Shown one piece after another: positions 48,422 through 64,000 of a stretch of 64,000 nt of DNA. The notes under the pieces were generated by a model. That model was not told the origin of the DNA, searched no databases, and worked only from the letters and a program-made list of their open reading frames with translations. Each line of letters begins with the position of its first letter. The stretch's first letter is position 1. The DNA is from Aequorivita sp. CIP111184 (GTDB lineage Bacteria; Bacteroidota; Bacteroidia; Flavobacteriales; Flavobacteriaceae): contig NZ_UEFQ01000020.1 of assembly GCF_900489465.1 (NCBI RefSeq), forward strand, positions 62,001 through 126,000. The letters run 5' to 3'. A program made the position numbers and the translations under genes.

Positions 48422-48913
48422 TTAATCGTCATCATCGTCAGTATTGGAATCTAGTTGAATTAAATTATTGCCATCGCTTCTAATTTCAGTATGAACAATT
48501 TCACCCCCACTTGTACCCACAAATTTGGACATAACAATACTGCTTATGGACAGAAGGAGTACTACGATAAAGCCATATTTTGCAAAAGCGTATTTTTTAT
48601 AGTGTATAAGAAAGGTGACTAGTGAAAGCCCCCCCAAAATCAACATCATCGTATAAAAAATCTCTGCTTGTTCTTCGTGTGCATGGATAAGGGTTTCACT
48701 TACTCCCGGTAGCTTCTCTACGATTTCCTCTGCTCCTTCCCCTGTAAAAAAAGCAGCAATAGCCGCTAGACTACTAAAAATGAAAATACCCAGTGCCATT
48801 GTCTTTACTTGGGGGCTTTTTGTGAAATAACCTGTGAGTAAGACAAAAAACCCAATCAATACTCCCACAATGGGAAGATGTGTTACTACTAAATGAAGAT
48901 GTGCATCGTTCAT
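48422..48913 (-). CDS. Four-helix membrane protein related to DUF2231, regulated by the TTAAG box
   Basis: 163 aa. HLHLVVTHLPIVGVLIG at the start carries the two His residues typical of DUF2231-like/haem-binding membrane proteins. Four hydrophobic segments follow (about 8-28, 37-58, 85-105, 115-135) and an acidic Asp-rich tail (DSNTDDDDD). It is a distant relative of the 155-aa protein at 49921, which keeps a similar HxH...HFPIALILVG start. It has its own promoter (TACTTTTG at 48964-48971) with a TTAAG-N6-TTAAG box 32 bases upstream. It is possibly a quinone- or haem-associated redox membrane protein; this is inference. Confidence 0.75.
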   Translation of the reverse strand: MNDAHLHLVVTHLPIVGVLIGFFVLLTGYFTKSPQVKTMALGIFIFSSLAAIAAFFTGEGAEEIVEKLPGVSETLIHAHEEQAEIFYTMMLILGGLSLVTFLIHYKKYAFAKYGFIVVLLLSISSIVMSKFVGTSGGEIVHTEIRSDGNNLIQLDSNTDDDDD

Positions 48914-48963
48914 GATTTTTATATTTAGATTATTAAATTTTGTACCTGTATTTTATAATACCT

Positions 48964-48971
48964 CAAAAGTA
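48964..48971 (-). promoter_or_regulatory. -7 element of the 163-aa membrane protein gene
   Basis: Minus strand TACTTTTG, a match to TAnnTTTG. The TTAAG box ends 32 bases upstream. Confidence 0.65.
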
Positions 48972-49003
48972 TATGGCCTATCTAAGAGCCTTCTAAACGG
49001 TTT

Positions 49004-49019
49004 CTTAAAATTGGCTTAA
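49004..49019 (-). promoter_or_regulatory. Response-regulator box 1 (TTAAG-N6-TTAAG)
   Basis: Plus-strand CTTAAAATTGGCTTAA. On the minus strand TTAAG half-sites recur with an 11-base period (TTAAGCCAATTTTAAG), as OmpR-family regulators bind. One of four sites, all at the same distance from a -7 element. Confidence 0.7.
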
Positions 49020-49051
49020 GAATAGTATTTTGGAAAATCTACAAATAATAA

Positions 49052-49075
49052 AAGCCCCAAACATCGTCTGGGGCC
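49052..49075 (-). terminator. Terminator of the rubrerythrin gene
   Basis: GCCCCA, nine-base loop, TGGGGC, and on the minus strand TTTTATTATT follows, about 40 bases after the rubrerythrin stop. Confidence 0.75.
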
Positions 49076-49115
49076 CTTACCAACCAATCAACACTATAAA
49101 AAACCAAATTTTAAA

Positions 49116-49820
49116 TTATAGTGAATCTATTTTTATAAATAATTTGGAATCCGTCATTGATATTTCACATCTTGCTGGAGCCGTTGTTGCGTATGTGTTT
49201 CCACAAGTAGGGCATAGATAATAAAGCGAAGGCAATGATTTTACATTTCCATCTTCCAAAGCTTTTAAGGCATTTATATAGAAATCTCTGTGTTTTTGTT
49301 CCACTTTATAGGCATAAGTTAAACTTATTTGAGCCATATAATTTCCAGCAGCATGGGCATCTTTTATAAAATTAGGATACATGGTATTAAACTCATAGCT
49401 CTCGCCTTCGATGGCATTTTCTAAGTTTTCTTTGGTTGAATTAACAGTGAATTCTGGTTTAACGTCTGGGATTTTTTCACCCATTCTATCTAACACAACC
49501 TTATGATTATTGGCGTGTATCAATTCTGCTTCAGATGCCGCTTTAAAAAGCATCGCAATTTCAGGATAGCCTTCTTCCACTGCTTTTTTACTAAACGCGG
49601 CATACTTAGCATGTGCGGTAGTTTCACCCTTAAACGCATCTTTCATATTCTGAATAGTTGCTTTTTGAGGGTCTTTATTTTCCGTTGTATCGCCCATAAC
49701 CTCTTGCCCTATTTCTTCAGATGATTTCACTTCAATTTTGTCAACATTGTCTTTACAAGATTGAAAAAGCATACTTGAGAATACCATTCCAAGTACTAAT
49801 ACTACTACTGATTTTTTCAT
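49116..49820 (-). CDS. Exported rubrerythrin-like lipoprotein
   Basis: 234 aa. The signal peptide has a lipobox (MLFQSC, Cys about 22), then an acidic linker and a rubrerythrin/ferritin-like four-helix domain (about 55-190). Expected di-iron ligands are visible: FKGETTAHAKYAAFS (Glu), EAELIHANNH (Glu/His), AIEGESYEFNTMYPNF (Glu), KVEQKHRDFY (Glu/His). The C-terminal rubredoxin-like knuckle has CPTCG, then ARCEIS, where the last Cys is Ser. This would be an oxygen- or peroxide-detoxifying, di-iron protein outside the cytoplasm. Its promoter carries a TTAAG box. Confidence 0.85.
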   Translation of the reverse strand: MKKSVVVLVLGMVFSSMLFQSCKDNVDKIEVKSSEEIGQEVMGDTTENKDPQKATIQNMKDAFKGETTAHAKYAAFSKKAVEEGYPEIAMLFKAASEAELIHANNHKVVLDRMGEKIPDVKPEFTVNSTKENLENAIEGESYEFNTMYPNFIKDAHAAGNYMAQISLTYAYKVEQKHRDFYINALKALEDGNVKSLPSLYYLCPTCGNTYATTAPARCEISMTDSKLFIKIDSL

Positions 49821-49853
49821 TTTATTTATTTTTAAATTATATTAATTATTGAG

Positions 49854-49861
49854 TAAATGTA
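49854..49861 (-). promoter_or_regulatory. -7 element of the rubrerythrin gene
   Basis: Minus strand TACATTTA, seven of eight positions of TAnnTTTG; the TTAAG-like box ends 33 bases upstream. Confidence 0.45.
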
Positions 49862-49894
49862 TCACCACATAGCTGTGGGTTTTCTTTAGTATTT

Positions 49895-49910
49895 CTTAAG
49901 AATTGATTAA
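49895..49910 (-). promoter_or_regulatory. Response-regulator box 2 (degenerate)
   Basis: Plus-strand CTTAAGAATTGATTAA; the same 16-base frame as the other boxes with one half-site changed (TTAAT instead of TTAAG), in front of the rubrerythrin gene. Confidence 0.6.
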
Positions 49911-49920
49911 AAAATTTATG

Positions 49921-50388
49921 TTATTCGGTGGTTTGATCTCCAAAATCTGGCAGTGTCAATTCAATACCTGCTCCATGTTGGAATACCAATTGCCCGCCTA
50001 AATAACCTGTTCTGGCAACCGAACCTACTAAAGCAGCAAATAGAAAAATGCCAACCCATTTTGTCCAGATGCTTTCATATTTGAAGTAGTATATTGCCAC
50101 ACGAAATAATGCGGTAATGATAGCAAGCCATAGTGTTATGACAGCAGCTTCTTCGTGAAGTTCCATGGGTTCTTGTAATATGCCGTCTGTCATCCCACTT
50201 CCTGCATAACTTCCGCTAATGTAAGCTACTATAGCACCTACAGCACCTAGAAGTAAGAGATAAAATGCAGCATTCTTGAAAAATGGCTTTTTACTGATTA
50301 GTGCTATTATTTCTGAAAGAAAACCAACTAAGATTAAGGCTATCGGAAAGTGGATAACCATTGCGTGAATGTGGGGTGCTGTTAACAT
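49921..50388 (-). CDS. DUF2231-type membrane protein
   Basis: 155 aa with four hydrophobic segments (about 12-32, 40-62, 82-103, 112-132). HIHAMVIHFPIALILVGFL at the start and the histidine of LHEEAAVITLW match the DUF2231 pattern of His-bearing membrane helices (some relatives bind haem). It is probably a redox-related membrane subunit. A perfect TAnnTTTG promoter (50414-50421) and a TTAAG box (50454-50469) lie upstream. The box overlaps the stop codon of the histidine kinase gene, so this gene has its own control. Confidence 0.8.
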   Translation of the reverse strand: MLTAPHIHAMVIHFPIALILVGFLSEIIALISKKPFFKNAAFYLLLLGAVGAIVAYISGSYAGSGMTDGILQEPMELHEEAAVITLWLAIITALFRVAIYYFKYESIWTKWVGIFLFAALVGSVARTGYLGGQLVFQHGAGIELTLPDFGDQTTE

Positions 50389-50413
50389 TTTTATGTGTTT
50401 TTTAATTACATAT

Positions 50414-50421
50414 CAAATGTA
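50414..50421 (-). promoter_or_regulatory. -7 element of the DUF2231 gene
   Basis: Minus strand TACATTTG, a full match to TAnnTTTG; the TTAAG box ends 32 bases upstream and no TTTG stands at -33. Confidence 0.65.
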
Positions 50422-50453
50422 GCAGCGCAAACTAAGGCTGGGCTAAAGGAATT

Positions 50454-50469
50454 CTTAAGATCTGCTTAA
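50454..50469 (-). promoter_or_regulatory. Response-regulator box 3 (TTAAG-N6-TTAAG)
   Basis: Plus-strand CTTAAGATCTGCTTAA, overlapping the stop codon of the histidine kinase gene at 50466 and 32 bases before the -7 element of the DUF2231 gene. Confidence 0.7.
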
Positions 50470-51839
50470 AATTTAATGGTGAAGGTGGTTCCCGAACCAA
50501 ATTCACTTGTTACGTGAATTTCGGCATTTATAGCATCGGCAGCCTTTTTGGCTATGGAAAGACCCAAACCGTTTCCTGAAATGCTTTTATGATTTAGGGC
50601 ATCCGACCTGAAAAAGTGGTTAAACAAGTTGTTCAAATCCTCTTTTTTGATGCCTATTCCTTCATCTTGGATCTTGCAAACAATTTTAGAATTGGCTTCA
50701 GTAATGGTAATGTGTACCGTTTTATGCTCCTCGGAATATTTTATGGCATTACCAATAATATTGTCTAAAATCAAGTTGGAATAATACTTCGGCACAACAT
50801 TTACTAGTGCAGCACCTTTGTGAAAATCTAATACAAGTTTTTTTTCTGATATACTTTTTTTACGCCTTGAAAGAATTTCGTCTATTACAGTGGGTAAAGG
50901 AACTAGGGATTGGTCTATTGTTTTAGAATTGGTATCTAACCTTGCTAGCAGTAAAAGTTGCTCCAAAGTGCCAGTTATTCGGTCTATTTCCGTAAGACTG
51001 AATTTAATTTTCTCCTCATATTCCGCCCGCTCCCTTGGTTTTCGAATCAATACCTCAAGCGTACCTTTTAAGGTCGATAAAGGGGTGCGCAGTTCATGGG
51101 AAGCGTCTGAAGTAAATTGCTGTTCGCGTTCAATGGCGCTTTCAATACGCTGTAATAATTGGTTGATACTCGATGATAATTCATAGAGTTCGTCTTTGTT
51201 TTGTGGTAAAACCACTCTTTCATTAAAATTATTTTTTGTAATCCGCTTTGTGGTTTCGGTTATAACTTTTACTGGAATGATGCCGCGTCCCGCCAAGTAT
51301 CTTGAGATGAAATACAATCCCACTAATAGAAACAGATAAGAAATAAACAAAACATTGCGTAGGTTGAGTAATACCATCTTAGATGATTCTAATGACATTG
51401 CAGCGAGTATAAAGCCTTTAATTTTGCCATTTTGCTCGATAGGCACTTGAACTTGTCTGATAGCTTTACCGTTGAGTTTTTCGTTAAAATGGCCACCGAA
51501 GTTTTGTTGTGGATTAAAGGTGAGGACATCATTTTTAAGGTTAGGCGATTTGTCTATAAATTTGCCATTCTTATCGAGTATTTGAATAAAGACAGGGTTT
51601 ACTTGAACTTCCCGATGCTCCCTTTGTTCCCATCCCTTTTTATTTTTTATTTTTATGCTATCTCCTAAGATTTTAATTTCTCCGGTGTGCTTCTCAGCTT
51701 CAAAAGATAGGTCGCTATCCAGATTTTGAAAAACTGTTCCCTGCACTACAAAATAAACAGCTGTAAAAGCCACGGCCATAATCATGGCAGTGGCTATCAT
51801 ATAATGTAATGCAATTCTATTTTGAAAACTTAAGTTCAT
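50466..51839 (-). CDS. HAMP-domain sensor histidine kinase
   Basis: 457 aa: membrane segment (about 13-35), a periplasmic sensor region (about 35-145), a second segment (about 160-180), HAMP (about 180-235), H-box SDASHELRTPLSTLKG (His about 249), then the ATPase domain with N-box NIIGNAIKYSE, G1 DEGIGIKKED and G2 GNGLGLSIAK. It overlaps the response-regulator gene by four bases (ATGA type), so the two are made together. The architecture is that of metal- or envelope-stress kinases such as CusS. The signal is not known. Confidence 0.94.
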   Translation of the reverse strand: MNLSFQNRIALHYMIATAMIMAVAFTAVYFVVQGTVFQNLDSDLSFEAEKHTGEIKILGDSIKIKNKKGWEQREHREVQVNPVFIQILDKNGKFIDKSPNLKNDVLTFNPQQNFGGHFNEKLNGKAIRQVQVPIEQNGKIKGFILAAMSLESSKMVLLNLRNVLFISYLFLLVGLYFISRYLAGRGIIPVKVITETTKRITKNNFNERVVLPQNKDELYELSSSINQLLQRIESAIEREQQFTSDASHELRTPLSTLKGTLEVLIRKPRERAEYEEKIKFSLTEIDRITGTLEQLLLLARLDTNSKTIDQSLVPLPTVIDEILSRRKKSISEKKLVLDFHKGAALVNVVPKYYSNLILDNIIGNAIKYSEEHKTVHITITEANSKIVCKIQDEGIGIKKEDLNNLFNHFFRSDALNHKSISGNGLGLSIAKKAADAINAEIHVTSEFGSGTTFTIKF

Positions 51840-52504
51840 ATTTCTTTTGCTACATAGCCAATTCCACGCACGGTTTGAATATAATTTTCATCTTCTCCGA
51901 GTTTTAATTTTTTGCGAAGGGCATTAATATATACGTCAATAACCCCTGTGTTGTATTCAAAGTGAATATCCCAAACACTCTCAATGATACGGGATCGTCG
52001 GCATACTATACCTTTGTTGCGCATCAGGTATTCCAGAAGCGCAAATTCTTTTTGGGTCAGACTGATTACTTCCTCAGCCTTAAGCACTTGATGTGTTGCT
52101 GTATTCAGGGTTATATTTCCAAGTTTAAAAATGGAATGTTCCCCAGATTTAGGGCGCAGTTGCACTTTAATTCGTTCTAAAAGCTCTTCAAAATGAAATG
52201 GTTTCTTTATATAATCGTTAGCACCGGTTTGGAGTCCGAAGATGGTTTCATCAAGGGTGTCTTTTGCAGTTAAAAAAATGACAGGGGTATCTTTAAATTC
52301 CTTTCGGAATTGCCTACAAATTTCGATTCCGCTCATTCCTGGCAACATCCAATCCAGCAGCAACAAATCATACTCCCCAGAAAGCGCCAAATGAAGGCCT
52401 TTCTTCCCTTCCTCGGCAATATCCACCGCATATGACTCCTCCTCTAACCCCTGTTTGAGGAAATTATATATACCGGGTTCATCTTCTACAATTAAAATTC
52501 TCAT
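51836..52504 (-). CDS. OmpR-family response regulator
   Basis: 222 aa. The receiver domain has EDE near the start, the phosphorylated Asp in DLLLLDWMLPG, the Thr of FLTAKD and the Lys of YIKKPF. The DNA-binding winged helix (about 125-222) has ISLTQKEFALLEYLMRNKG, RSRIIESVWD and VDVYINALRKKL. It is probably CusR-like. Its own promoter and three further promoters in the cluster carry the same TTAAG-N6-TTAAG box, as expected for its binding site. The stop overlaps the kinase gene. Confidence 0.94.
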   Translation of the reverse strand: MRILIVEDEPGIYNFLKQGLEEESYAVDIAEEGKKGLHLALSGEYDLLLLDWMLPGMSGIEICRQFRKEFKDTPVIFLTAKDTLDETIFGLQTGANDYIKKPFHFEELLERIKVQLRPKSGEHSIFKLGNITLNTATHQVLKAEEVISLTQKEFALLEYLMRNKGIVCRRSRIIESVWDIHFEYNTGVIDVYINALRKKLKLGEDENYIQTVRGIGYVAKEI

Positions 52505-52508
52505 GCTG

Positions 52509-52516
52509 CAAAAGTT
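52509..52516 (-). promoter_or_regulatory. -7 element of the response-regulator gene
   Basis: Minus strand AACTTTTG, seven of eight positions of TAnnTTTG, very close to the ATG. The TTAAG box ends exactly 32 bases upstream. Confidence 0.5.
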
Positions 52517-52548
52517 ACAATTTTTAATTAAGTTAAGATTTGGTTTTT

Positions 52549-52564
52549 CTTAAGATTGGCTTAA
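52549..52564 (-). promoter_or_regulatory. Response-regulator box 4 (TTAAG-N6-TTAAG)
   Basis: Plus-strand CTTAAGATTGGCTTAA, in front of the response-regulator gene itself, implying autoregulation. Confidence 0.7.
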
Positions 52565-54845: not shown

Positions 54846-56624
54846 TTAGTCTATTTCCTCGGTAACACTTCCGCAGTCCAACATTTCCGCTCCAAAATAT
54901 GGATTGCGGATTTCCTTATCCTTACTCAACCAATACGCACCCACATTGTTGTTTGCCATGGGGCAAAATTCCACATAGACTTTTTGATTGATACCAAAAG
55001 TTTTTACGGCATTTATTAAATGAGCTGATAGATGCACAAAGTATTCCCTTTGTTTTTTAATGTCTGATGTTTTGGATATTGAAGTAGCTGCTTCTTTTAG
55101 TTCTTTATCCAATTGCATCCAATGGTTATGGACATTTTGATCTTTCAATAGCTTCATATCAACCTCTGAAATCCTTTTAAGCAAATTGTTTGCGCCTTCC
55201 TTGGCAGATTCAGCATTGTCTTTTATCAAGGCATCTTCCAAGATGATGTAAGCGCCAAAAATACCTTTGAGCTGTGTTTGGAATTTTGCAGCGGTTTCCA
55301 ATCTTTGGTTATGCGCAATGTGGTCTGACGTTTCTATCTTGGTTGTATTTCCCATACCTACATGTCCTTCATGGCCGGTCGTTGTTTTGCCTCCTTCGGT
55401 ATTCATCATGCTTTTTTTACCTTGTAACTGGGCAGCGGCATCAACCGTAAAGGTGCCATTGGTTACCACTTCTTCTCCATTTCTTAGTCCATCAACAATG
55501 TTATAAACATCGCCATTTTTAGTGCCCAAGGTTACTTTACGCATTTCAAAAACAGGCTCGTTGGGATTTGTTTTTACATACACCAAGGACCTGCTTCCTG
55601 TCCATAAAACCGCAGTGGCGGGAACGGTTATCTTTGCTTGGGCTGCATTGCCTTTGGACATCTGTACTTTTGCGGTAACGAACATTCCCGGTTTCAATAT
55701 ATCTTCTTTATTGTTCAAGGTTGTCCTCACTGAAACGGTTCTGGATTTGGTATTCAAGACTGGGTCTATAAAAGATACCGTCGCTTCAAATTCTTTGTTG
55801 GGATAGGCATTGGTGGTAACTGTTATTTTTTGGCCTTCCTTTAGCTGTGAAATTTGATTTTCATAAGCGTCAAACATTGCCCATACGGTACTCAGATTGC
55901 TCACTTTTACAATGGGTTGTCCTTGTTTAACATAATCGCCTTCCTCTGCCATTTTTTGGGAAACCGTACCTGAAACCGTTGCGTAAATGGGGAAATTCTC
56001 ACGTACTTTTCCCGATGTCTCTATTTGATTGATTTGACTTTCTGATAGTTTCCAAAGTTTTAACTTGTTGCGAACAGCATTATAAAGAGCGGGTTGCGAA
56101 GCTTTCATAGAAGTTGCGGTTATAAGTTCTTGTTGTGCAGCAACAAGGTTGGGGGCATAAATAGTGGCTAATAATTGCCCTTTTCGGACTTCTTCGCCCG
56201 TAAAATTGACGTTCAGTTTTTCAATACGGCCTTCAAAATAACTTGCCTGAACGGCGTTGGCTTCTTCATTGGCCATTATCTTTCCAGAAAGTAACATTGT
56301 GTTTTCATCCGTTCCCGACGCATTTCCCACAATAGTAGTTTGGATGTTTGCCAATGCCATGGCGTTTTCTGTCATTTTAATCTCGTTCACTGCAAGGCCA
56401 TCCGCACCTGATTCCGCAGGAATTAAATCCATCCCACAAATGGGACAATCGCCTGGTTCGGGTTGCATAATTTGTGGGTGCATAGAGCAGGTCCACATTT
56501 GGGTCTTGGCTTCAGCTTTTTCTGTTTTGTTGCTGTCTGAACTTTCTGAAGAAGTCCCAAAAAAGACATAGCCCATGACTAATCCTACGGCTAAAATTGC
56601 GATATAAATGATGTATTTTTTCAT
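54846..56624 (-). CDS. CusB-like RND adaptor with N-terminal metal-binding and C-terminal DUF3347 domains
   Basis: 592-aa periplasmic membrane-fusion protein of heavy-metal efflux pumps. The N-terminal anchor (about 3-22) is followed by a heavy-metal-binding domain (about 43-70: MWTCSMHPQIM...GDCPICGMDL). A CusB/HlyD core follows (about 100-400; lipoyl and hairpin parts with KLNVNFTGEEVRKGQLLATI and VQQGQPI-like segments). A C-terminal DUF3347 domain closes it (about 430-592, FCPMANNNVGAYWLS, NPYFGAEMLDCG). No CusA-type pump or outer-membrane channel lies in this window next to it, so the pump must be elsewhere or lost. Confidence 0.9.
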   Translation of the reverse strand: MKKYIIYIAILAVGLVMGYVFFGTSSESSDSNKTEKAEAKTQMWTCSMHPQIMQPEPGDCPICGMDLIPAESGADGLAVNEIKMTENAMALANIQTTIVGNASGTDENTMLLSGKIMANEEANAVQASYFEGRIEKLNVNFTGEEVRKGQLLATIYAPNLVAAQQELITATSMKASQPALYNAVRNKLKLWKLSESQINQIETSGKVRENFPIYATVSGTVSQKMAEEGDYVKQGQPIVKVSNLSTVWAMFDAYENQISQLKEGQKITVTTNAYPNKEFEATVSFIDPVLNTKSRTVSVRTTLNNKEDILKPGMFVTAKVQMSKGNAAQAKITVPATAVLWTGSRSLVYVKTNPNEPVFEMRKVTLGTKNGDVYNIVDGLRNGEEVVTNGTFTVDAAAQLQGKKSMMNTEGGKTTTGHEGHVGMGNTTKIETSDHIAHNQRLETAAKFQTQLKGIFGAYIILEDALIKDNAESAKEGANNLLKRISEVDMKLLKDQNVHNHWMQLDKELKEAATSISKTSDIKKQREYFVHLSAHLINAVKTFGINQKVYVEFCPMANNNVGAYWLSKDKEIRNPYFGAEMLDCGSVTEEID

Positions 56625-56728
56625 CTGTATAAAATATTTGTTTTTTAAAGGAAGACGTAATGACCTGTTATACTCCTTCGGTTGATTTACCCTTAGTTAA
56701 TGGGCATTCCATAATTATATTCTTAAAT

Positions 56729-57520
56729 TTATTTTCCCAATTTCAAAATATTAATAGCTCCTTTTGTTACTATTATAAACACGATCGCTCCAACAATTAG
56801 ATCAGGAATTCTAGAATTTGTCCATAGTACCAAAAACCCTGCGATGATTACTCCAAAATTTATTATTATATCATTGGATGTAAAAATCATACTAGCTTGC
56901 ATATGTGCTTCATTGCTTTTGGATTTTTGCAATAAATAAAGACAGGCTGCATTTGCCAACAATGCTAGTATTGATACGATTATCATTGTTAAAAAATCTG
57001 GCGTTTCCGTTTTTGAAAAAAAACGCCTTACTATTTCCATAAATCCAATAATGGCTAATAAAATTTGGAAGCCTCCAGCCATGGTAGCGATATTCTTTTT
57101 TCGGGACAATGAACCGCCTACTGCAATCAGGCTCAAACCATATACAAATGAATCTGCAAGCATATCAAGACTGTCTGCCACCAAACCCATTGATTTTGAA
57201 AGCCATCCAGTTGTTATTTCAATTATAAAAAAGAGGAAATTGATAGCCAATACGGCCCAAAGCAATTTGCGTTGATTTGAAGGTTCATCAAAAATCACCT
57301 CATCAGTAGTAATTGTTGTTATCAATTGCTCATTAAATTTTAAATCGCGTATAGCACCCTCTATTTTCTGAAGATTCCCATTGTGATAGACCACTAATGT
57401 CCTATTGGTAATATCAAAATCCAGTTGTTTTATTTGATGAAACCTTTCCAACTTCATCCGAATAATTGATTCTTCAGAAGGGCAATCCATCTTTTGTATT
57501 TTGAAAATTGATTTGTCCAT
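56729..57520 (-). CDS. Cation diffusion facilitator (CDF) with N-terminal HMA-like domain
   Basis: 263 aa. Residues 1-70 form an HMA-like ferredoxin-fold domain (IFKIQKMDCPSEESIIRMKL, with CPSEE instead of CxxC). Six membrane segments follow. ADSLDMLADSF in TM2 carries the ion-site Asp residues, and TM5 has SNDIIINFG where HxxxD would be typical. The cytoplasmic C-terminal domain of classical CDFs is missing. It is probably a zinc/cobalt-type exporter, part of the metal island. The DUF305 gene lies 12 bases upstream on the same strand. Confidence 0.83.
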   Translation of the reverse strand: MDKSIFKIQKMDCPSEESIIRMKLERFHQIKQLDFDITNRTLVVYHNGNLQKIEGAIRDLKFNEQLITTITTDEVIFDEPSNQRKLLWAVLAINFLFFIIEITTGWLSKSMGLVADSLDMLADSFVYGLSLIAVGGSLSRKKNIATMAGGFQILLAIIGFMEIVRRFFSKTETPDFLTMIIVSILALLANAACLYLLQKSKSNEAHMQASMIFTSNDIIINFGVIIAGFLVLWTNSRIPDLIVGAIVFIIVTKGAINILKLGK

Positions 57521-57532
57521 TACCCACTAATT

Positions 57533-58015
57533 TTAGTTTTCTGCTTCCAGACGCTTGATGTATTGTTTCATTTCGGCTATTTCCTTTTCTTGTGCCTTAA
57601 TGATACCATCAGCCAATTTACGCACTTCTGGGTCTTTGAGGTCTGCCCTTTTGCTCGTTAAAATTGCGATGGAGTGATGGGGAATCATTGCTTTCATCCA
57701 GAGTATATCGCCAACAATAGGGCTTTGTGCTCTTACCAAGCCAAGTGCACTAACAAACAAAATCAAGCTTCCCAATAAAATGGCGATATTCTTTTTCTTG
57801 TTTTGGTACATTTTGCGCATAAAGAACCACATTATTACTGCCATAGCTGCTATGCCCAAACAACTCATATAGAATCTGGTTACACTGAAATAAACGTGGT
57901 CTAACGCATAAGTGTTAAGATACATCGTGATATACATTGCTACAAATGAGGCAGTGAGCATCAATATAAACTTTGTGTAATTGCCTTTGCTGTTGTGTTG
58001 GTTTGAATTCTCCAT
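57533..58015 (-). CDS. DUF305 membrane protein
   Basis: 160 aa: three hydrophobic segments in the first 100 residues, then the DUF305 core WMKAMIPHHSIAILTSKRA (the MIPHHS motif) and KLADGIIKAQEKEIAEMKQY. Such proteins are common in copper and heavy-metal clusters, where the His residues may bind metal; the function is otherwise unknown. It lies between the deleted copA gene and the CDF transporter, 12 bases from the latter. Confidence 0.87.
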   Translation of the reverse strand: MENSNQHNSKGNYTKFILMLTASFVAMYITMYLNTYALDHVYFSVTRFYMSCLGIAAMAVIMWFFMRKMYQNKKKNIAILLGSLILFVSALGLVRAQSPIVGDILWMKAMIPHHSIAILTSKRADLKDPEVRKLADGIIKAQEKEIAEMKQYIKRLEAEN

Positions 58016-58033
58016 GGTTTTAATATTTAGTGT

Positions 58034-58416
58034 TTATAGTTGGATTTTTTTTAATCGTAATGAATTCAGAATTACAGATACTGAACTGAAACTCATAGCC
58101 AAGGCTGCTATCATTGGCGATAATAGGTACTGGTGCCGTTGGTTTGTTGACTTTCCTTTTTCGCTTTTTTCTCAGCTTGGTGCTTATGTTCCGCTCCAGG
58201 ATCAGCCGGAAGTGTAATAGAATAGCTCCCTCCATCGTCTTTCAATGCTTTTTGAAAAGCTTCCAAAGGGATATGCTCTTCCATTTCTATAACCGCTTCT
58301 GCCTTTTCTAGATCTACAGATGCCTTTGTAACTCCATTGACTTCACTTAAGGTTTTCTCAACGTGGCTGCGGCAACCATTGCAGGTCATTCCGTGAATGT
58401 GATAGGTGTGTTTCAT
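58034..58416 (-). pseudogene. copA: copA P-type copper ATPase with the middle deleted; HMA domain remains
   Basis: The 58416 start gives a 101-residue HMA protein (GMTCNGC at 9-15, then a Lys/Glu-rich linker to TNGTSTYYRQ) ending at TGA 58111. In another frame, directly behind it, the 3' end reads LLSPMIAALAMSFSSVSVIL, then NSLRLKKIQL and stop at 58034. That is the usual last membrane helix and tail of Bacteroidota copper P1B-type ATPases. The normal middle (CPMHC metal site, CPC helix, phosphorylation and ATP domains; about 650 residues) is missing. The junction lies at about 58121-58130, near the word CTATTATCGCC, which could pair with a similar word in an intact gene. The short HMA product may still act as a metallochaperone. 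Confidence 0.8.
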
Positions 58417-58430
58417 TTTATCTTAATTTT

Positions 58431-59786
58431 TTACATTTTCGTCATTTCATCTTCACTCATTTCTATTCCCATATTCATGTTTCCGTCCTTATCTGTATGT
58501 GATTTCATAAATAGAAATTGAGACAAAAAAATGAGAGCAATCCCTATTGCTGCGACAATAAGCACAAAGGGGTCGGTCAAAAATTTTAAAAAGATAAATG
58601 CTGCCAAAACAACAATATCCATTAGCAAGGCAATTATGGGAATTACTGGATTGAATTTTACTTTCTTTTTAAGGTGTTTAAATAGTCCCCAATGAATGGC
58701 AATATCCATTATCAAGTAGAAAATTGCTCCAATGGAAGCTATTCGAGTTAAGTCGAACAAAATAGTTAACAGTATTGCTAATGAAACGGTAAGAATCAAG
58801 GAAGGATTTTTAAGTTTCTTGATTCTATTCAAATTAGGAACTTGTTTCATACTACTTAACATTCCTAACATTCTTGAAGCAGAATACACGCTGGCAATTA
58901 CACCGGAAACAGTTGCAACAATGGCAAGTAAAATTGTTAAAGTAGAACCCCATTCGCCAAATAGGGGTTTTGCGGCTGCGGCCAAAGCATAATCTTTTGC
59001 CACTATAATTTCTTCAACACTCAATCCGCCAGCAACCGATAATGCCAAGGTAACATAGATGATTGTACAAACGACAATTGAAATAATTATGGAACGCCCT
59101 ACATTTTTATGAGGATTTTTTATATCGCCTCCTTGATTTGTGATTGTTGTAAATCCTTTATAAGCAAGAATCGATAAGGCTAATGCAGCAACAAATCCAA
59201 AACCTTCAGGTAGGGATTGGCTATTTGCAGGACTATAATTACCTGTAATAGTAGGTAAACCAGAAATAACCAATCCCGAAATGGCCAATACCACAATACC
59301 AACTACTTTTATAATTGCAGTAATGGTGGCGGTACGTTCAATAATTTTATTGCCAGAAATATTGACAATATATGCAATAGCAATAAGGATTACTCCCAAC
59401 ACAGATGCGTACCCGGCATACTCCTGCGGAAACAGCCGTAAAGCATACGCCCCAAAAGTTCCTGCCACTAAACTTTCGGCAACAACCATAGACACGTACA
59501 TTAACAAGGAAAATGAACCTGCAAGTGTACCTGGCGAATAGGCCTTTGTTAAAAATTTTACAACCCCACCAGAAGATGGATAAGCATTGGAAAATTTTAC
59601 ATACGAATAAGAACTAAATCCTACCACTACAGCTCCTACTATAAAAACAACAGGAAATAAATCGCCAACCAATTCGGCTATCTGCCCCATTAACACAAAA
59701 ATACCTGCACCTATCATCACGCCTGTTCCTAATGATACAGAGCCTAATAATGACAATTTTTGGGTGTTTATTTTTAAGGGGTTCAT
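58431..59786 (-). CDS. APC-family amino acid permease
   Basis: 451 aa with 12 hydrophobic segments and the family consensus SLGTGVMIGAGIFVLMGQIA in helix 1 (unwound GxG region), YSYVKFSNAYPSSGGVVKFL in helix 3 and LALSILAYKGFTTITNQGGD in helix 6. The C-terminal end is cytoplasmic and Met-rich (MNMGIEMSEDEM). The order fits the cationic amino-acid/YfnA-like group. It lies inside the metal island on the same strand, 12 bases after the 97-residue gene. The transported substrate is not known; a link to metal resistance is only positional. Confidence 0.88.
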   Translation of the reverse strand: MNPLKINTQKLSLLGSVSLGTGVMIGAGIFVLMGQIAELVGDLFPVVFIVGAVVVGFSSYSYVKFSNAYPSSGGVVKFLTKAYSPGTLAGSFSLLMYVSMVVAESLVAGTFGAYALRLFPQEYAGYASVLGVILIAIAYIVNISGNKIIERTATITAIIKVVGIVVLAISGLVISGLPTITGNYSPANSQSLPEGFGFVAALALSILAYKGFTTITNQGGDIKNPHKNVGRSIIISIVVCTIIYVTLALSVAGGLSVEEIIVAKDYALAAAAKPLFGEWGSTLTILLAIVATVSGVIASVYSASRMLGMLSSMKQVPNLNRIKKLKNPSLILTVSLAILLTILFDLTRIASIGAIFYLIMDIAIHWGLFKHLKKKVKFNPVIPIIALLMDIVVLAAFIFLKFLTDPFVLIVAAIGIALIFLSQFLFMKSHTDKDGNMNMGIEMSEDEMTKM

Positions 59787-59797
59787 TTGGCAACTAT

Positions 59798-60091
59798 TTA
59801 TCTTAATTTTTTTCGCATTGCATCAGAAATATTTTCGGCGTAAACTCCGTATGCATCCACCAATAATCCTTTAATTCCGTTTTTGGATGAAATGGCATAC
59901 AGCACACTATTGTCGTCTGTACTGCTCATTCCTTCAAAACGATGCATCTCATCCACATCAAAATCTTCTGGGTGTAATTTCAACTTTAATGCATTGCATT
60001 CAATATGTCCCGAACATAAATTAAAATCATAGGTGTATCCGTTTGCTTGTAAATCTTTCATTGCTTCTGAAAGGGTATCATAACTTTTCAT
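59798..60091 (-). CDS. Conserved 97-residue protein (PRPP-synthetase-annotated family)
   Basis: 97 aa: YDTLSEAMKDLQANGYTYDFN, LHPEDFDVDEMHRFEGMSS and DNSVLYAISSKNGIKGLLVD. This small soluble family is common in Bacteroidota and is often labelled phosphoribosylpyrophosphate synthetase by annotation transfer, though it lacks the enzyme's motifs. The function is unknown. It stands 11 bases before the permease gene in the same operon direction. Confidence 0.78.
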   Translation of the reverse strand: MKSYDTLSEAMKDLQANGYTYDFNLCSGHIECNALKLKLHPEDFDVDEMHRFEGMSSTDDNSVLYAISSKNGIKGLLVDAYGVYAENISDAMRKKLR

Positions 60092-60227
60092 CTGTTGTTC
60101 TTTTATATATTGTTCAAAATAAAATCAACCATTTCCGAAGGCGGCAAAACGGGTACGTGGATTACCGGAAACGGTAAGGATACATTCACATTGGCAATAA
60201 GCGTCCCTAAATTCCTACTGGTTTATA

Positions 60228-60299
60228 CTATTTTTCTTTTCTAAAATACCAAAGTGCCAATAGGACAATTAGAAATGGAATAATCCATAAATACATCAT
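60228..60299 (-). CDS. 23-residue membrane peptide
   Basis: MMYLWIIPFLIVLLALWYFR then KEK: one hydrophobic helix with a basic end, ATG-ATG start at 60299. Short single-helix proteins of this kind are frequent next to metal-resistance lipoproteins in Bacteroidota. Support is the clean helix and its position directly after the Met-rich lipoprotein gene. Confidence 0.5.
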   Translation of the reverse strand: MMYLWIIPFLIVLLALWYFRKEK

Positions 60300-60314
60300 A
60301 ATTTCTTGATTTTA

Positions 60315-60764
60315 TTACTCAAGGTTATTGCTGTGATTGTCTGCCATACCGCCCATATTCATACCTTTATCGCTCATCATCTTCATACCGGATTTCATAC
60401 AATCTTCGCTCATCATCCCTTCATTATGCATCATTTGCATCATTTGATTCATCATTTTTCCATCTTTCATCATTGATTGCATCATATTCATTGACGTTAC
60501 ACTGTCATTCATCATATTCATACCTTCGCCCTTCATCATCATATTCATCATTTTGTGATTTCCCTGCATCATTTGCATTGCTTGATTATTGCCTTGCATA
60601 TTCTCCATAAATTCATTCATAAAATTGGGATTATTTGCAATTGTTTGCATAATCTCATTTCTTGTTTCTGTATTTTCAAGCATTGCCTGAACATCTGGTT
60701 CTTGCTTACAACTATTTAATGTCATTAAGCCTACTACTGATAAAATCATTACTAATGTTCTCAT
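60315..60764 (-). CDS. Met-rich lipoprotein, probably copper-binding
   Basis: 149 aa. The signal peptide has a lipobox (MTLNSC). The mature part contains about 39 Met in all 149 residues (26%) in MM and MxM groups (MQMMQGN, NMMMKGE, MNQMMQMMH), the composition of periplasmic copper- or silver-binding proteins such as CusF/PcoE-like Met-rich chelators. It shares its signal peptide (MRTLVxxLxVxGLxTLxxCKQ) and 5' region with the 69-residue lipoprotein at 60878, as a duplicated cassette. It belongs to the copper island. Confidence 0.82.
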   Translation of the reverse strand: MRTLVMILSVVGLMTLNSCKQEPDVQAMLENTETRNEIMQTIANNPNFMNEFMENMQGNNQAMQMMQGNHKMMNMMMKGEGMNMMNDSVTSMNMMQSMMKDGKMMNQMMQMMHNEGMMSEDCMKSGMKMMSDKGMNMGGMADNHSNNLE

Positions 60765-60900
60765 AATATTTAATTTTTAGATTACTATTTATTTATTCTG
60801 TTTTCGTTGACGTGATTATGTTTATTATTGAATTTTCTTCCACAGTATCAGAAGTGTTATTTGCAGAATGGAATATATTATTGGTTTCCTTTTCTTTTTG
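60765..60900 (-). repeat. Duplicated cassette (copy 1) of lipoprotein 5' region and HMA tail
   Basis: This stretch repeats 61088-61230 in order: leader before a MRTLV lipoprotein (TTAATTTTTAGATTACTATT, TTTTCGTTGACGTGAT), then the tail coding for ...ETxNIFHSAxxTS... The copy here is no longer an HMA gene end but keeps recognisable translation (KEKETNNIFHSANNTSD). Confidence 0.7.
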
Positions 60901-61087
60901 TGAAATTGAAAAATAACACTATCAATACTATTACAATTAGGAGTATGAAAAACCACCAGCCCACATGCATTCCCCAGTAATGGTAACCTCCATTATGGTT
61001 CATCATTGTGTTTCCATCTGTATCTTGTTTACAGCATGTTAATGTAAAAAGACCAATTACCGTTAAAAGTGTTACTAATGTTCTCAT
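60878..61087 (-). CDS. Small lipoprotein with membrane helix
   Basis: 69 aa: a signal peptide with lipobox (LFTLTC), a short His- and Trp-containing stretch (MNHNGGYHYWGMHVGWWF) and one hydrophobic helix (about 45-62, FILLIVIVLIVLFF), ending FTKRKGNQ. Its 5' part matches the Met-rich lipoprotein gene. The end of its reading frame runs into a duplicated piece of the HMA gene tail. It is probably part of the copper island; its function is unknown. Confidence 0.65.
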   Translation of the reverse strand: MRTLVTLLTVIGLFTLTCCKQDTDGNTMMNHNGGYHYWGMHVGWWFFILLIVIVLIVLFFNFTKRKGNQ

Positions 61088-61230
61088 AATATTTAATTTT
61101 TAGATTACTATTTATTCTGTTTTCGTTGACGTGATCATGTTTATTGTTGGATTTTTGATTTTTCTTCAATTTTATGCGAAGTGCTGTATGCAGAATGGAA
61201 TATGTTTTTGGTTTCCTTTTCCGAAAGAAG
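61088..61230 (-). repeat. Duplicated cassette (copy 2), parent
   Basis: The leader of the 69-residue lipoprotein gene plus the last codons of the HMA gene (EKETKNIFHSAYSTS). It is colinear with 60765-60900 with scattered differences. Confidence 0.7.
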
Positions 61231-61416
61231 ATACTTTTCAGGAAGAACATTTTGAAGGGTTTGGGCAGAGATATGGCCGCTCATTGTAACTTCGGCCCCT
61301 CCTTTTTCAACATTTGCGACCACCTTAGTTACATTATCTAACTGACCCAAATATTTTTCTACAGATGCTTTACAGCCTCCGCAGGTCATTCCGTGTATTT
61401 TATATGTGTGTTTCAT
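61141..61416 (-). CDS. HMA-domain copper metallochaperone-like protein
   Basis: 91 aa. The ferredoxin-like HMA domain (residues 1-66) has GMTCGGCKASVE at 9-20, the CxxC copper-binding motif. A hydrophilic tail follows (LSEKETKNIFHSAYSTSHKI). It resembles CopZ-type chaperones and the first HMA domain of copper ATPases. It overlaps the stop of the haem-binding gene by one base (TAATG), so the two are coupled. It is part of the copper island. Confidence 0.88.
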   Translation of the reverse strand: MKHTYKIHGMTCGGCKASVEKYLGQLDNVTKVVANVEKGGAEVTMSGHISAQTLQNVLPEKYLLSEKETKNIFHSAYSTSHKIEEKSKIQQ

Positions 61417-61871
61417 TATTCGTGATTTTTCTTTAAAATCCTTAAATACGCTACAAGAGTTTGTCTTTCATCTTTTGAAATCTCAGCATCCCTATGCATT
61501 AAAACATACGAATAGAGAGGCATTTCTTCGTCTTCAATTTGATGGATCATCGCGTTGAGCTTGCTATTTTTTCTTCTCTCGGAATACGTATCCCATTCGT
61601 TGAAATTCAATTCGTCCTTTCCTTCTTTTATATGATGCTCCAAAAACCAAGCTATCGGTTGCATCTTATTGTACCAAGGATAGTCCGTATTGTTGCTGTG
61701 GCAATCATAGCAGGATTCTTGCAATATAGTATTAACGTTCTTTGATGGATTGTTGACCACCAAAAAATCGGTTTTTGGCACTATATTACTTTGGTTACGC
61801 CTTGTGGGCACAAACTGCATGCCCACAAACGCAATCAATAAAATAATCAATATGATTCTTAGAATCTTCAT
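61416..61871 (-). CDS. Haem-binding domain protein (cytochrome c-like, CxxCH)
   Basis: 151 aa with an N-terminal membrane anchor (about 3-20, ILRIILIILLIAFVGMQF) and the covalent haem motif CYDCH (about 54-58), then SNNTDYPWYNKMQPIAWFLE, HIKEGKDELNFNEW and the distal LYSYVLMHRDA region. This matches the haem-binding domain family (PF14376-like) found in Bacteroidota electron transfer or stress clusters. It probably lies in the periplasm with its haem. It is coupled to the HMA gene behind it. Confidence 0.86.
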   Translation of the reverse strand: MKILRIILIILLIAFVGMQFVPTRRNQSNIVPKTDFLVVNNPSKNVNTILQESCYDCHSNNTDYPWYNKMQPIAWFLEHHIKEGKDELNFNEWDTYSERRKNSKLNAMIHQIEDEEMPLYSYVLMHRDAEISKDERQTLVAYLRILKKNHE

Positions 61872-61942
61872 AATAAGATTGATTTAATGCATCAAATGGT
61901 TCAACATCCCAAAATCAGCCTAAAGCATACAGCTTACAGCCC

Positions 61943-62632
61943 TTAATTTATTTCTTTCTCCACTTTTCCGCAATTCAGCATTTTGCTACCATAATATGGA
62001 TTCTTTATGTCCTTGCTCCTACTTAACCACGCACTGCCACCATCGTACATTGGGCAAAATTGTTGGTATAAAGTAGTTTCCGTGCCGGTAATGGCAACCA
62101 TATCGGTTATATCCTTGCTCAATATTTTGAAATGTTCACGTTGGTGGTCCATTTCACTTTTGCCAATATGTTCTGCATGCTCCATTGCGTCTTCAATAAT
62201 ATCTTTCAGTTCCTTTTGCTGTTCAGCAGAGTAACTGCTTACATTAAAACCCTTCAATGTGCTTTCAAGTTTCTTTCCAGCCTTTGCAGCATCCTCTTTA
62301 TTGGTTGCCACCAAAGCATCTTTCAGTGCCATATAATCTGCCACCACTTGTTTTGCATCGGAATTCTGCATTTTGGAATCCATTACAGTATTGGACCTAT
62401 CCGTATTGTTGTGGTCCATCATTGAAGTATCGTGATTCATTATTGAATCATTTTCATCCATCATTGAATTTTCGTGATTCATCATAGAATCATCATGATT
62501 ACCTTCTTCTGGCATTTCAGAATGCATTCCATCGTCGTGCAAATCTTCCTTTTTGGTGTCTCTACATGACATTGTTGTTAGGCTTACGAAAGCCATTGCC
62601 ACAATTGCTGTTGCTACTTTTAAATTCTTCAT
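61943..62632 (-). CDS. DUF3347 lipoprotein with His/Met-rich linker
   Basis: 229 aa. A signal peptide with lipobox (TTMSC, Cys about 23) is followed by a His-, Met- and Asp-rich linker (about 30-90: [18 protein letters not shown] and similar words), likely to bind copper. A DUF3347 domain covers about 95-229 ([56 protein letters not shown]). The same domain ends the CusB-like adaptor in this island. It is probably a periplasmic copper-sequestering protein. It lies directly after the multicopper oxidase gene. Confidence 0.86.
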
Positions 62633-62665
62633 TTTGTTTTACATTTAAATTAATATTATTATTTA

Positions 62666-64000
62666 TTAAAATCTCACTGAAAGTCCACCACCCGCTCCAA
62701 AACGGTTGTCGTAGCTCGCCATCAATGAAAAGTTTCGTGATAAAAAATATTTTACTCCTGCCTTCCAAGTAACTTCGTTTGTGAAATTATCTCCAAAAGA
62801 AAGGTCATCAACCCAACCGAAATTAGCTTGGTATTCATACATTCCAAAAATGGCTGTTCTTGGAAAAATCAGTATTTCACGACTTAAACTTATTTGAGGT
62901 CGCAACTTACTATCGATTCGCACATCGAGATTGAACAAATAAGGTGTTAAGAATCGTATACCCGCAATTGCCGTGGTGGAAATCTCATCTAAACTATCTT
63001 CCATCTCATTTTCAATGTTCACACCACCAAAAACCCGTAAATAATCGTGCAGATAACGTTCATAGGTTACTTCAGCTTCTAGATTTTGGTTCCAACCATA
63101 TTCTGCCATCACATTAAATTGATTTCGAATATTTGAAGAAACAAAATTAAACCCTGTCATATTTGATGCGGCATCAACAGTTGCCCATGTATAATATTGG
63201 TCAGCTTCGTTAATTAAGTTCTTTACCGGATATTTTGCCATCCGTGGGTCGCGAGGTGTATCATAACTTACAATTCTTGCCATACCACTCATCATATGGT
63301 ACAGGATGTGGCAATGAAAAAACCAATCGCCATATTCATCGCCATTGTTACCGCTGAATTCAATAGTAACTTGTTGCATTGGTGGTACATTAACCGTATG
63401 CTTTAAGGGCGAATACTCGCCATTTTCATTAATGACTCTAAAAAAGTGACCGTGCAAATGCATTGGGTGGTGCATCATCGTCAAATTATTGAAGGTCATT
63501 CTGGTAACTTCGCCGCTTTTAATTTTTATGTTATCTGCTTCGCTTAACGGAACTCCATTCATACTCCAGATGTAGCGTTGCATATTTCCTGTAAGATTCA
63601 GTAATATTTCCTTGACTGGAAGTTTCTTATCATACGTTGTTTTTTCGGGCGATTTCAGATAATCGTAATTGTATTCAGAAAACATATTCATCCCATCCAT
63701 AGCTGCAGTTGAATCCTTTATCATTTCCATATTGGAATGGTCCATTTTTGAGTGGTCCATTTTTTCATTCATCACAGAATCTTTTGGGATTTTCATTTTA
63801 TCATTCATCTTCATTTTAGAATCGTCCATTTTCATTTTGTCCATATGCATTCCATATTCTTTCTTCATTTCAAAACGCTCATCTTTGTTTGGTTGAAATT
63901 TTAACGCGTGTGCACCCATTTTCATATCCATTTTTGCCATTCGCTGCATCATCTTGATTTTATCGGGTTTGGCTATAACTTGCGCAGGAAGTATTTCGCC
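62666..64000 (-). CDS. Multicopper oxidase (CopA-like) fused to a CopB-like barrel, 5' part outside the window
   Basis: The frame is open to the window edge, so the N-terminal cupredoxin domains are missing. What is seen: a Met/Lys/Asp-rich segment (about 1-75 of the visible part), then the last cupredoxin domain with HHPMHLHGHFF and the copper-cluster motif HCHILYHMMSGM (His-Cys-His, axial Met). A C-terminal 200-residue beta-barrel-like domain follows (from about YTWATVDAASNM to the final GGLSVRF) as in CopB. This is a copper oxidase, probably oxidising Cu(I) in the periplasm, linked to an outer-membrane part. It starts the operon of the DUF3347 lipoprotein. Confidence 0.9.
   Translation of the reverse strand, partial: GEILPAQVIAKPDKIKMMQRMAKMDMKMGAHALKFQPNKDERFEMKKEYGMHMDKMKMDDSKMKMNDKMKIPKDSVMNEKMDHSKMDHSNMEMIKDSTAAMDGMNMFSEYNYDYLKSPEKTTYDKKLPVKEILLNLTGNMQRYIWSMNGVPLSEADNIKIKSGEVTRMTFNNLTMMHHPMHLHGHFFRVINENGEYSPLKHTVNVPPMQQVTIEFSGNNGDEYGDWFFHCHILYHMMSGMARIVSYDTPRDPRMAKYPVKNLINEADQYYTWATVDAASNMTGFNFVSSNIRNQFNVMAEYGWNQNLEAEVTYERYLHDYLRVFGGVNIENEMEDSLDEISTTAIAGIRFLTPYLFNLDVRIDSKLRPQISLSREILIFPRTAIFGMYEYQANFGWVDDLSFGDNFTNEVTWKAGVKYFLSRNFSLMASYDNRFGAGGGLSVRF

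Follow-up and report, generated by a model that had tools for sequence, protein, structure and literature searches.

The window analysed here (a 64-kb stretch of the Aequorivita sp. CIP111184 genome) carries on its minus strand genes for an OmpR-type response regulator (RR), a sensor histidine kinase (HK), a DUF2231 membrane protein, a rubrerythrin-family protein and a 163-aa membrane protein, together with four operator sites (Table 1). The RR matches PF00072 (106.4 bits) and PF00486 (90.0 bits), both over cut-off, and so belongs to the OmpR/PhoB type. The rubrerythrin has a hydrophobic N-terminus with a conserved Cys22, which by eye looks lipoprotein-like in the alignment. The 163-aa protein likewise belongs to the DUF2231 family (29.7 bits, Pfam cut-off 26.4). 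The predicted DUF2231 fold is a four-helix bundle (pLDDT 86), and a Foldseek search with this model gave no match at E <= 0.001. CcmF, CcmC and cytochrome b561 were among its top rows, but designed bundles score equally high, and for that reason we claim no function for DUF2231. The literature searched contained nothing tying DUF2231 to copper.

Table 1. Genes and regulatory features of the proposed regulon (window coordinates)
Feature	Position	Strand	Basis or remark
OmpR-type RR, 222 aa (putative box owner)	51836..52504	-	Pfam Response_reg and Trans_reg_C
Sensor HK, 457 aa	50466..51839	-	Profile matches and kinase alignment
RR promoter, half-sites 1 and 2	52549..52564	-	Window sites; conserved in relatives
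RR promoter, half-sites 3 and 4 (weaker)	52538-52542 (CAAAT); 52527-52531 (TTAAT)		
RR promoter, -7 element TAACTTTTG	52509..52517	-	TTTG-N4-ATG pattern and published spacing rule
DUF2231 promoter, half-sites 1 and 2	50454..50469	-	Overlaps HK stop codon
DUF2231 promoter, half-sites 3 and 4	50443-50447; 50432-50436		
DUF2231 promoter, -7 element TACATTTG	50414..50421	-	
DUF2231 membrane protein, 155 aa	49921..50388	-	Pfam; conserved H6, H8, H13, H78, H138
Rubrerythrin promoter, half-sites 1 and 2	49895..49910	-	Most divergent site, TTAATCAATTCTTAAG
Rubrerythrin promoter, half-sites 3 and 4 (weak: TAAAG, CACAG)			
Rubrerythrin promoter, -7 element TACATTTA	49854..49861	-	
Rubrerythrin-family protein, 234 aa	49116..49820	-	Pfam PF02915
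163-aa gene, half-sites 1 and 2	49004..49019	-	Resembles czcA operator of relatives
163-aa gene, half-sites 3 and 4	48993-48997; 48982-48986		
163-aa gene, -7 element TACTTTTG	48964..48971	-	
Approximate deletion junction	48932..48945	-	Sequence match to relatives
163-aa DUF2231 membrane protein	48422..48913	-	Pfam; homologue is a late czcA-operon gene in several relatives

Four TTAAG-N6-TTAAG sites lie on the minus strand of the window, each 31-33 nt upstream of a -7 element, and read on that strand TTAAGCCAATTTTAAG, TTAATCAATTCTTAAG (the 49895 site), TTAAGCAGATCTTAAG and TTAAGCCAATCTTAAG. The initial annotation had reported 16-base sites with a common frame, or a near variant of it, at 49004, 49895, 50454 and 52549, and all are indeed present there; three are exact copies of CTTAAnATnnGCTTAA and the one at 49895 has two mismatches. 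The spacing of 32 or 33 bases to the -7 element that it gave is correct for the 163-aa gene (32), rubrerythrin (33) and DUF2231 (32), but is 31 at the RR promoter, the -7 element of which exceeds TAnnTTTG by one base while its TTTG keeps the register of the other three promoters.

Counts of the box within the window or its own genome are little proof. With up to two mismatches there are seven matches in the window against a shuffle mean of 5.5 (31 of 100 shuffles reach seven), and CTTAAN6CTTAA with at most one mismatch gives 22 against 12.4 (2 of 100 shuffles reach 22). The gapped pattern TTAAN7TTAAGN31-33TANNTTT occurs five times in the 3.54-Mb genome, as does its reversed control (3 + 2); four of these five matches are the promoters described above, all within 3.6 kb. 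The fifth match to this whole-genome pattern lies outside the cluster, at C16:172074. The genome has 57 places within one mismatch of TTAAGNNNATNTTAAG, and among the 30 examined a -7 element stands at the right offset only at three cluster sites. Because raw counts are close to control, the case rests on clustering, the fixed offset and conservation in relatives.

Comparison of relatives shows that the full operator consists of four half-sites arranged head to tail every 11 bp (TTAAG, TTAAG, yTTAG, cTTAG) and ends 10 nt before the TAnnTTTG -7 element. Half-sites 3 and 4 played no part in selecting promoters; of 16 pump promoters, 11 have the third at offset 22 and 11 have the fourth at offset 33, against at most 2 of 16 at any of 28 other offsets. 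The paired box with an 11-base period in the earlier description is real, but is only half of the operator. Direct repeats at about one helical turn are as found for OmpR/PhoB-type regulators, and the four half-sites are putative RR-binding sites. A strict TAnnTTT[GA] lies 31-33 nt behind the exact box in 26/29 cases for CzcA, 12/15 for DUF2231 (the three misses are shifted, overlapping matches), 6/7 for rubrerythrin and 3/3 for M163, against 0/9 in five control loci without the RR and a chance rate of 0.0054. This recount omits locus L117, taken to be the same contig as L047 since the two agree in length (55814) and in their boxes; with both counted, a looser -7 rule gives 28/30, 13/16, 7/8 and 3/3, respectively. 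Boxes assigned to the RR differ, with a strict -7 element in 1/31; there TTTG is in register and TA is one base off or absent, and in the scanned loci 27 of 28 distinct boxes next to the RR are followed by TTTG-N4-ATG. By the spacing rule used for predicting starts of transcription (excerpt of PMC6847099), the RR message looks leaderless, transcription being predicted to begin on the A of its ATG (52504).

Conservation of the sites upstream of orthologues had been set beforehand as the test that could refute the proposal, and the sites proved to be conserved. Ten relatives with RR and HK, picked by their rubrerythrin protein and without use of the box, all have a box in three places (10/10 each): ahead of the RR gene, ahead of DUF2231, and in the gap from rubrerythrin to the next gene; the exact box lies directly before rubrerythrin in six. 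At the DUF2231-rubrerythrin loci of four genomes without the RR the box is absent. Outside the Flavobacteriaceae (nine RR loci of 11 genomes), seven loci have the site, six upstream and one about 2 kb downstream, and two lack it. Most other scanned loci were chosen for having the box, and related genomes are non-independent events.

The commonest box target in relatives besides the RR gene is a CzcA-type RND efflux operon. Thus, the "small self-contained regulon" with an exported rubrerythrin that was first envisaged stands as to its four promoters, but the rubrerythrin and DUF2231 genes are a part, or what is left, of something larger. The pump motif in relatives, DFGxxxDG[AS]xxxVE[FY], is close to the DFGX3DGAX3VEN of divalent pumps (excerpt of PMC3637150), but with F or Y in place of N. 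The best CzcA match in the window's own genome is 63% identical (C16:347385-351710), and its locus contains no TTAA[GT]N6TTAA[GT]; around the remaining pump matches there, coverage was by the gapped whole-genome pattern. Upstream of the junction in Table 1 the sequence matches czcA upstream regions; downstream of it, the sequence matches the region around the start of the homologous late czc-operon gene. This strongly suggests that this lineage lost the pump genes by a deletion, which brought a DUF2231 gene under the czcA promoter, and the 163-aa gene probably acquired its box in this way.

The invariant residues of the HK periplasmic domain in 21 aligned kinases include D41, E47, H51, E54, E71, E74 and H75, as well as a sole Met, M148, near the second membrane segment; there is no invariant Cys. 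E71 and E74, with E77 present in at least 90%, form an ExxE motif and may bind metal, and the signal is presumably a divalent metal. The metals sensed differ among ExxE kinases. Copper or silver as the signal, with the same operator and owner, seems unlikely to us. The best NCBIfam matches do bear such labels (cztS_silS_copS, TIGR01386, for the HK; cztR_silR_copR, TIGR01387, for the RR), copper-type genes lie next door at 54846-63952, and the sensor model (pLDDT 82) weakly resembles CusS (E 5e-3), as it does WalK and other sensors. Yet both scores are under the curated cut-offs (202.2 against 292.55 bits and 223.7 against 279.2 bits), the periplasmic invariants are Glu, Asp and His rather than Cys and (M148 apart) Met, the pump motif is near-divalent, and neither the window mismatch scan nor the gapped pattern in the whole genome placed a box at the window's copper-type genes.

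Among 397 Flavobacteriaceae genomes, 25 contain the exact core TTAAGCNAATCTTAAG (a reversed-pattern control finds 7 places in the 397), and an orthologue of the window RR is present in 22 of 395. All 22 are among the 25, leaving three box genomes without the RR; of the 48 box places, 43 are no more than 10 kb from the RR (Fisher p 3.5e-33 for co-occurrence, setting n to 395 and disregarding relatedness). The box stands before the RR's own gene, as predicted for an autoregulated activator. RR gene and operator are thus shown by genome comparison to travel together, in agreement with the initial annotation's choice of the kinase/regulator pair as natural owner: throughout the family the box goes with the RR, and the four RR-free genomes lack it at their DUF2231-rubrerythrin loci. 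One genome (G317) has a 58% RR homologue but both its box places are on other contigs, and another (that of locus L041) has a 60% homologue, yet its DUF2231-rubrerythrin locus has no box; distant homologues may therefore differ. Ownership by another OmpR-type regulator, with the neighbouring RR merely one of its targets, is very improbable: the genomes seem to hold several such regulators (many first-look candidates in each), and a box before the RR gene is also compatible with control by a different factor, but a general regulator should leave boxes in RR-free genomes, and the exact box instead tracks this RR. It is less likely still that the sites are conserved for some non-binding reason such as a recently copied mobile cassette, for, patchy as the gene set is (rubrerythrin in 2/199 genomes) and mobile-looking as some adjoining genes are by eye, half-sites and offset stay fixed while spacers and flanks diverge, boxed loci reach RR identities as low as 62%, and an identical box precedes different target genes.

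We therefore read the window as holding a pared-down version, with four promoters, of an autoregulated two-component regulon present in Flavobacteriaceae and other families of the class, to which we assign a probability of about 0.82 on the sequence comparisons. Because the same switch and the same regulator gene recur in relatives, mostly before a metal-export pump, the circuit is very likely a genuine one that responds to metal stress, with this genome retaining only part of it. In such a circuit the kinase would detect excess periplasmic divalent (or ferric) metal through its Glu/His cluster, and phosphorylated RR would bind as a pair of tandem dimers covering roughly -60 to -23, substituting for a weak -33 element and recruiting RNA polymerase. 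A leaderless RR message from its own boxed promoter would provide positive feedback, and the output (pump, VIT1-type transporter, exported rubrerythrin and DUF2231 proteins) would cut metal load and metal-linked peroxide stress. No published account of the regulon was found among the matches listed, as judged by titles and the beginnings of abstracts. It is conceivable, though doubtful, that this two-component system, without description in the literature searched, joins periplasmic divalent-metal sensing to envelope peroxide defence, with DUF2231 proteins as heme- or metal-binding inner-membrane electron carriers that feed an exported three-cysteine rubrerythrin and are made together with metal efflux against metal-driven peroxide damage.

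On that doubtful reading, a TTAAG operator of the BqsR/PmrA type would have arisen again in a non-orthologous regulator, again with an ExxE-type sensor. If the regulon is as we read it, it gives a Bacteroidota regulator-operator pair for which regulator, operator, promoter and start of transcription can all be predicted to the base, suggests an activator that sits where a TAnnTTTG promoter has its weak -33 region, and offers a testable metal/peroxide-stress setting for the uncharacterised DUF2231 family and the exported rubrerythrin. The regulon seems to have been caught while shrinking, with a deletion re-using a pump promoter.

The tandem 11-bp layout is like that of the pho box of PhoB, in which such repeats stand in for the upstream promoter element and stop some 10 bp short of the -10 element; the half-site sequence and the whole pathway differ. 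CusRS, CzcRS and CopRS provide the best-fitting subfamily models for RR and HK, with the sub-cut-off scores given above, and govern an RND heavy-metal pump, as relatives of the window system are predicted to do. Their operators are palindromic, whereas those here are direct repeats, with rubrerythrin and DUF2231 genes among the targets. The targets of PmrAB (BasRS) of enterobacteria are lipid A genes. Excerpts of the reports on that system describe head-to-tail CTTAAG-N5-xTTAAT half-sites (PMC3973317) and an ExxE iron-sensing kinase (PMC12666569, PMC4074579), and both features are alike here. The window RR, however, scores 163.6 bits against the PmrA NCBIfam model (cut-off 330), and the proposed PmrA specificity residues, H193 and H195 in an excerpt, align by eye with Y/F and N in DVYINALRKK of its recognition helix.

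The closest parallel is BqsRS (CarRS) of Pseudomonas aeruginosa. In excerpts, its activator box is TTAAG(N)6TTAAG with a critical spacer length, one of its promoters has four pentamers, the final one overlapping the -35 element (PMC4682146), and its kinase senses Fe2+ with a periplasmic ExxE motif (PMC12666569). That box is the same as the window's, and the four-pentamer promoter and ExxE kinase are both paralleled here; the target genes, the Bacteroidota -7 element and the leaderless-looking RR message differ. The regulators are not close: the CarR DNA-binding domain (9yfa) scores 35.5 bits against the window RR, far under CovR (67), PcoR (56.7), PhoP and others, and the CarR receiver (8gc6), at 81.9 bits, is also low in the list, a ranking that does not place the RR as a CarR orthologue. 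The operator is thus of a kind already known from BqsR, here predicted to serve an RR that is not closely related to it.

The initial annotation had proposed a four-promoter regulon owned by the adjacent kinase/regulator pair, and its four sites are all present as described (table below). Read in the sense of their minus-strand genes they are TTAAG-N6-TTAAG, except that one starts with TTAAT, and the distance to the Bacteroidota -7 element (TAnnTTTG) is 31 to 33 nt, where the initial annotation gave 32 or 33. Counts in the window and in its own genome are similar to control counts; the notable result of a whole-genome pattern search for the box plus a -7 element is that four of its five places are these promoters. 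On comparative evidence a conserved TTAAG-box regulon is real: the initial proposal holds, and the regulon is larger than was first described.

Positions of the features discussed, in the window or in fetched loci (L-numbers) of other genomes
Sequence	Position	Feature
Window	49004	Box ahead of 163-aa protein gene
Window	49895	Box ahead of rubrerythrin gene
Window	50454	Box ahead of DUF2231 gene
Window	52549	Box ahead of response regulator gene
Window	~48932	Switch of similarity at the 163-aa gene
Window	49116-49820	Rubrerythrin
Window	54846-63952	Copper-type genes: CusB-like with HMBD + DUF3347, CDF, DUF305/CopM-like, HMA-like, DUF3347, oxidase-like ORF
L033	2446	Second box-like site
L036	4750	Second box-like site
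L104	5590	Second box-like site
L034	8891-13225	CzcA-type pump fusion
L039	5469-8711	DUF2231-rubrerythrin without regulator, and neighbors
L110	9250-11476	Kinase gene in two pieces

A search with rubrerythrin, not the box, as query found 39 loci, of which the 18 strongest (L031-L048, 63-97% identity) were analyzed. Ten of these (L031-L036, L038, L043, L044, and L047) carry the OmpR-type response regulator (RR), its sensor histidine kinase (HK), DUF2231 and rubrerythrin together. In all ten the box is conserved ahead of RR, ahead of DUF2231 and in the gap between rubrerythrin and the next gene; it precedes rubrerythrin itself in six (exceptions L033, L034, L038, and L044). Five more loci (L039-L042 and L048) have DUF2231 and rubrerythrin with neither RR nor HK, and no TTAA[GT]N6TTAA[GT] site, in the fetched stretch. 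An RR homolog is absent at E <= 1e-60 from the whole genomes of L039, L040, L042, and L048, and the L041 genome has one, with 60% identity, away from that locus. The other three (L037, L045, and L046) end at a contig edge and are uninformative on the box. By eye, the L039 genes adjoin peroxiredoxin-, OsmC-, and BON-like stress genes.

The link between box and RR extends across the Flavobacteriaceae. The core TTAAGCNAATCTTAAG occurs at 48 places in 25 of 397 genomes (7 places for the reversed-pattern control, counted from the same table), and an RR ortholog (E <= 1e-80) in 22 of 395, the two samples differing by two genomes. All 22 RR genomes are among the 25 with the box (G193, G199, and G286 have the box only), and RR lies <10 kb from 43 of the 48 box places; in G317 the box places are remote from its 58% RR homolog. 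Among 295 Bacteroidia genomes RR was found at E <= 1e-75 in 16, 11 of them outside the family. In nine fetched outside-family loci (L165-L173), a TTAA[GT]N6TTAA[GT] site precedes the start of RR by <=90 nt in six; in L169 the sole site lies downstream, ~2 kb from the RR start and at the expected end of the kinase gene, and none was found in the fetched RR loci of L167 and L173. Regulon loci in L036, L104, and L121 adjoin genes that by eye resemble mobile-element parts, and RR is missing from both of the other genomes sampled in this genus, which makes horizontal spread or repeated loss likely. In L110 transposase-like ORFs adjoin the split kinase gene (by eye), while RR and a boxed pump gene are kept.

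Alignment of 47 distinct promoters on the box gives information peaks at 0-4, 11-15, 22-26, and 33-37, followed by the -7 element at 48-55; selection used the first two half-sites and the -7 element, and the last two half-sites played no part in it. In pump promoters (one per locus from 17 given loci, none from L119, so n = 16), offset 22 holds a half-site-like match in 11 promoters and offset 33 likewise in 11; none of 28 other offsets has more than 2. A strict TAnnTTT[GA] is present at 31-33 nt past the box in 26/29 cases for the RND efflux permease CzcA, 12/15 for DUF2231, 6/7 for rubrerythrin, and 3/3 for the 163-aa protein (chance rate 0.0054; L117, a second copy of L047, left out), and behind none of nine boxes in five control loci without RR. 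The figures are 6/21 for other ORFs and 1/31 with no ORF, many of these being the same palindromic box read backwards, and 1/31 for RR, whose -7 element has TTTG in register with TA shifted or missing. If the -7 element spans -12 to -5, as reported for Flavobacterium johnsoniae (PMC6847099, excerpt), the half-sites begin near -60, -49, -38, and -27, which makes the third overlap the -33 region. Such a layout is consistent with an activator standing in for a weak -33 element; RR probably binds the box and activates. The second box-like sites in L104, L036, and L033 lie 180 to 510 bp upstream of RR's own box; by eye they have a correctly spaced TTTG, and no ORF of their own was found in the RR direction.

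RR-adjacent boxes are followed by TTTG-N4-ATG in 27 of 28 distinct cases (L120 has TTTA-N4-ATG), a count that leaves out three boxes whose assigned start is 160-224 nt away. By the -7 spacing rule the RR message would start at its ATG, and we predict that it is leaderless; in F. psychrophilum 5.5% of mapped messages are reported to be so (PMC9723704, excerpt).

Another gene with the box ahead of it in relatives encodes a CzcA-type RND permease that carries a fused outer-membrane efflux domain (L034: TIGR00914, 1143 bits; PF00873 and PF02321). The fusion is a single chain of ~1440 aa in L034, the one locus domain-scanned, and its relatives. Behind the boxed pump gene comes an adaptor gene; in several loci there are then genes for a VIT1-type transporter, for a homolog of the 163-aa window protein, and for an HD protein. 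A post-kinase box in L105 precedes thioredoxin-like and ApbE genes (a similar pair by eye in L120), and in L036 a DUF302 gene lies 244 nt after a box. The region upstream of the 163-aa gene, box and -7 element included, matches that of czcA in L034 (74% over 156 columns) and L038 (69% over 209), and similarity then switches to the region where the homologous late gene of the operon begins (81-84% in L118, L104, L038, and L033; 74% in L034). A promoter graft from the czcA operon is strongly suggested by these alignments; most simply, the pump genes would have been deleted, leaving their promoter ahead of the 163-aa gene. L031 and L032 have the same arrangement as the window. The copper-type genes adjoining the regulon have no box in window or whole-genome pattern searches. 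DUF2231 and rubrerythrin presumably have a role in the regulon. In each of 20 aligned rubrerythrin sequences (two records twice), the rubredoxin-like C-terminal part retains just three Cys, two in CPxCG and a later one (RCE), against four in a usual rubredoxin site.

Across an alignment of 21 kinases, D41, E47, H51, E54, E71, E74, and H75 are invariant and E69, E72, and E77 nearly so (the window's own kinase has G69 and Q72). In the periplasmic part and next to it, Met is invariant at M148 alone, near the second membrane segment, and Cys at no position. In ColS, ExxE motifs are reported to detect Fe3+ and Zn (PMC4074579, excerpt), and in BqsS Fe2+, with the second Glu alone essential there (PMC12666569, excerpt). 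The regulon pumps' DFGxxxDG[AS]xxxVE[FY], which 26 pump ORFs carry (24 distinct records; only matching ORFs tallied), is close to the DFGX3DGAX3VEN given for divalent pumps (PMC3637150, excerpt). Together these favor, with moderate confidence, a divalent or ferric metal over copper as the kinase signal.

No description of this regulon was found in the literature searched. Comparison between genomes shows the linkage of RR and box, the operator anatomy, and the target genes. Pseudomonas aeruginosa BqsR has a published box and four-pentamer promoter, with one pentamer over an upstream promoter element (PMC4682146, excerpt), both shared with the window's regulon, and a similar direct repeat serves PmrA (PMC3973317, excerpt). 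RR of the window does not closely resemble either protein and is not assigned here to either family; the system would nonetheless work in the way BqsR and PmrA do.
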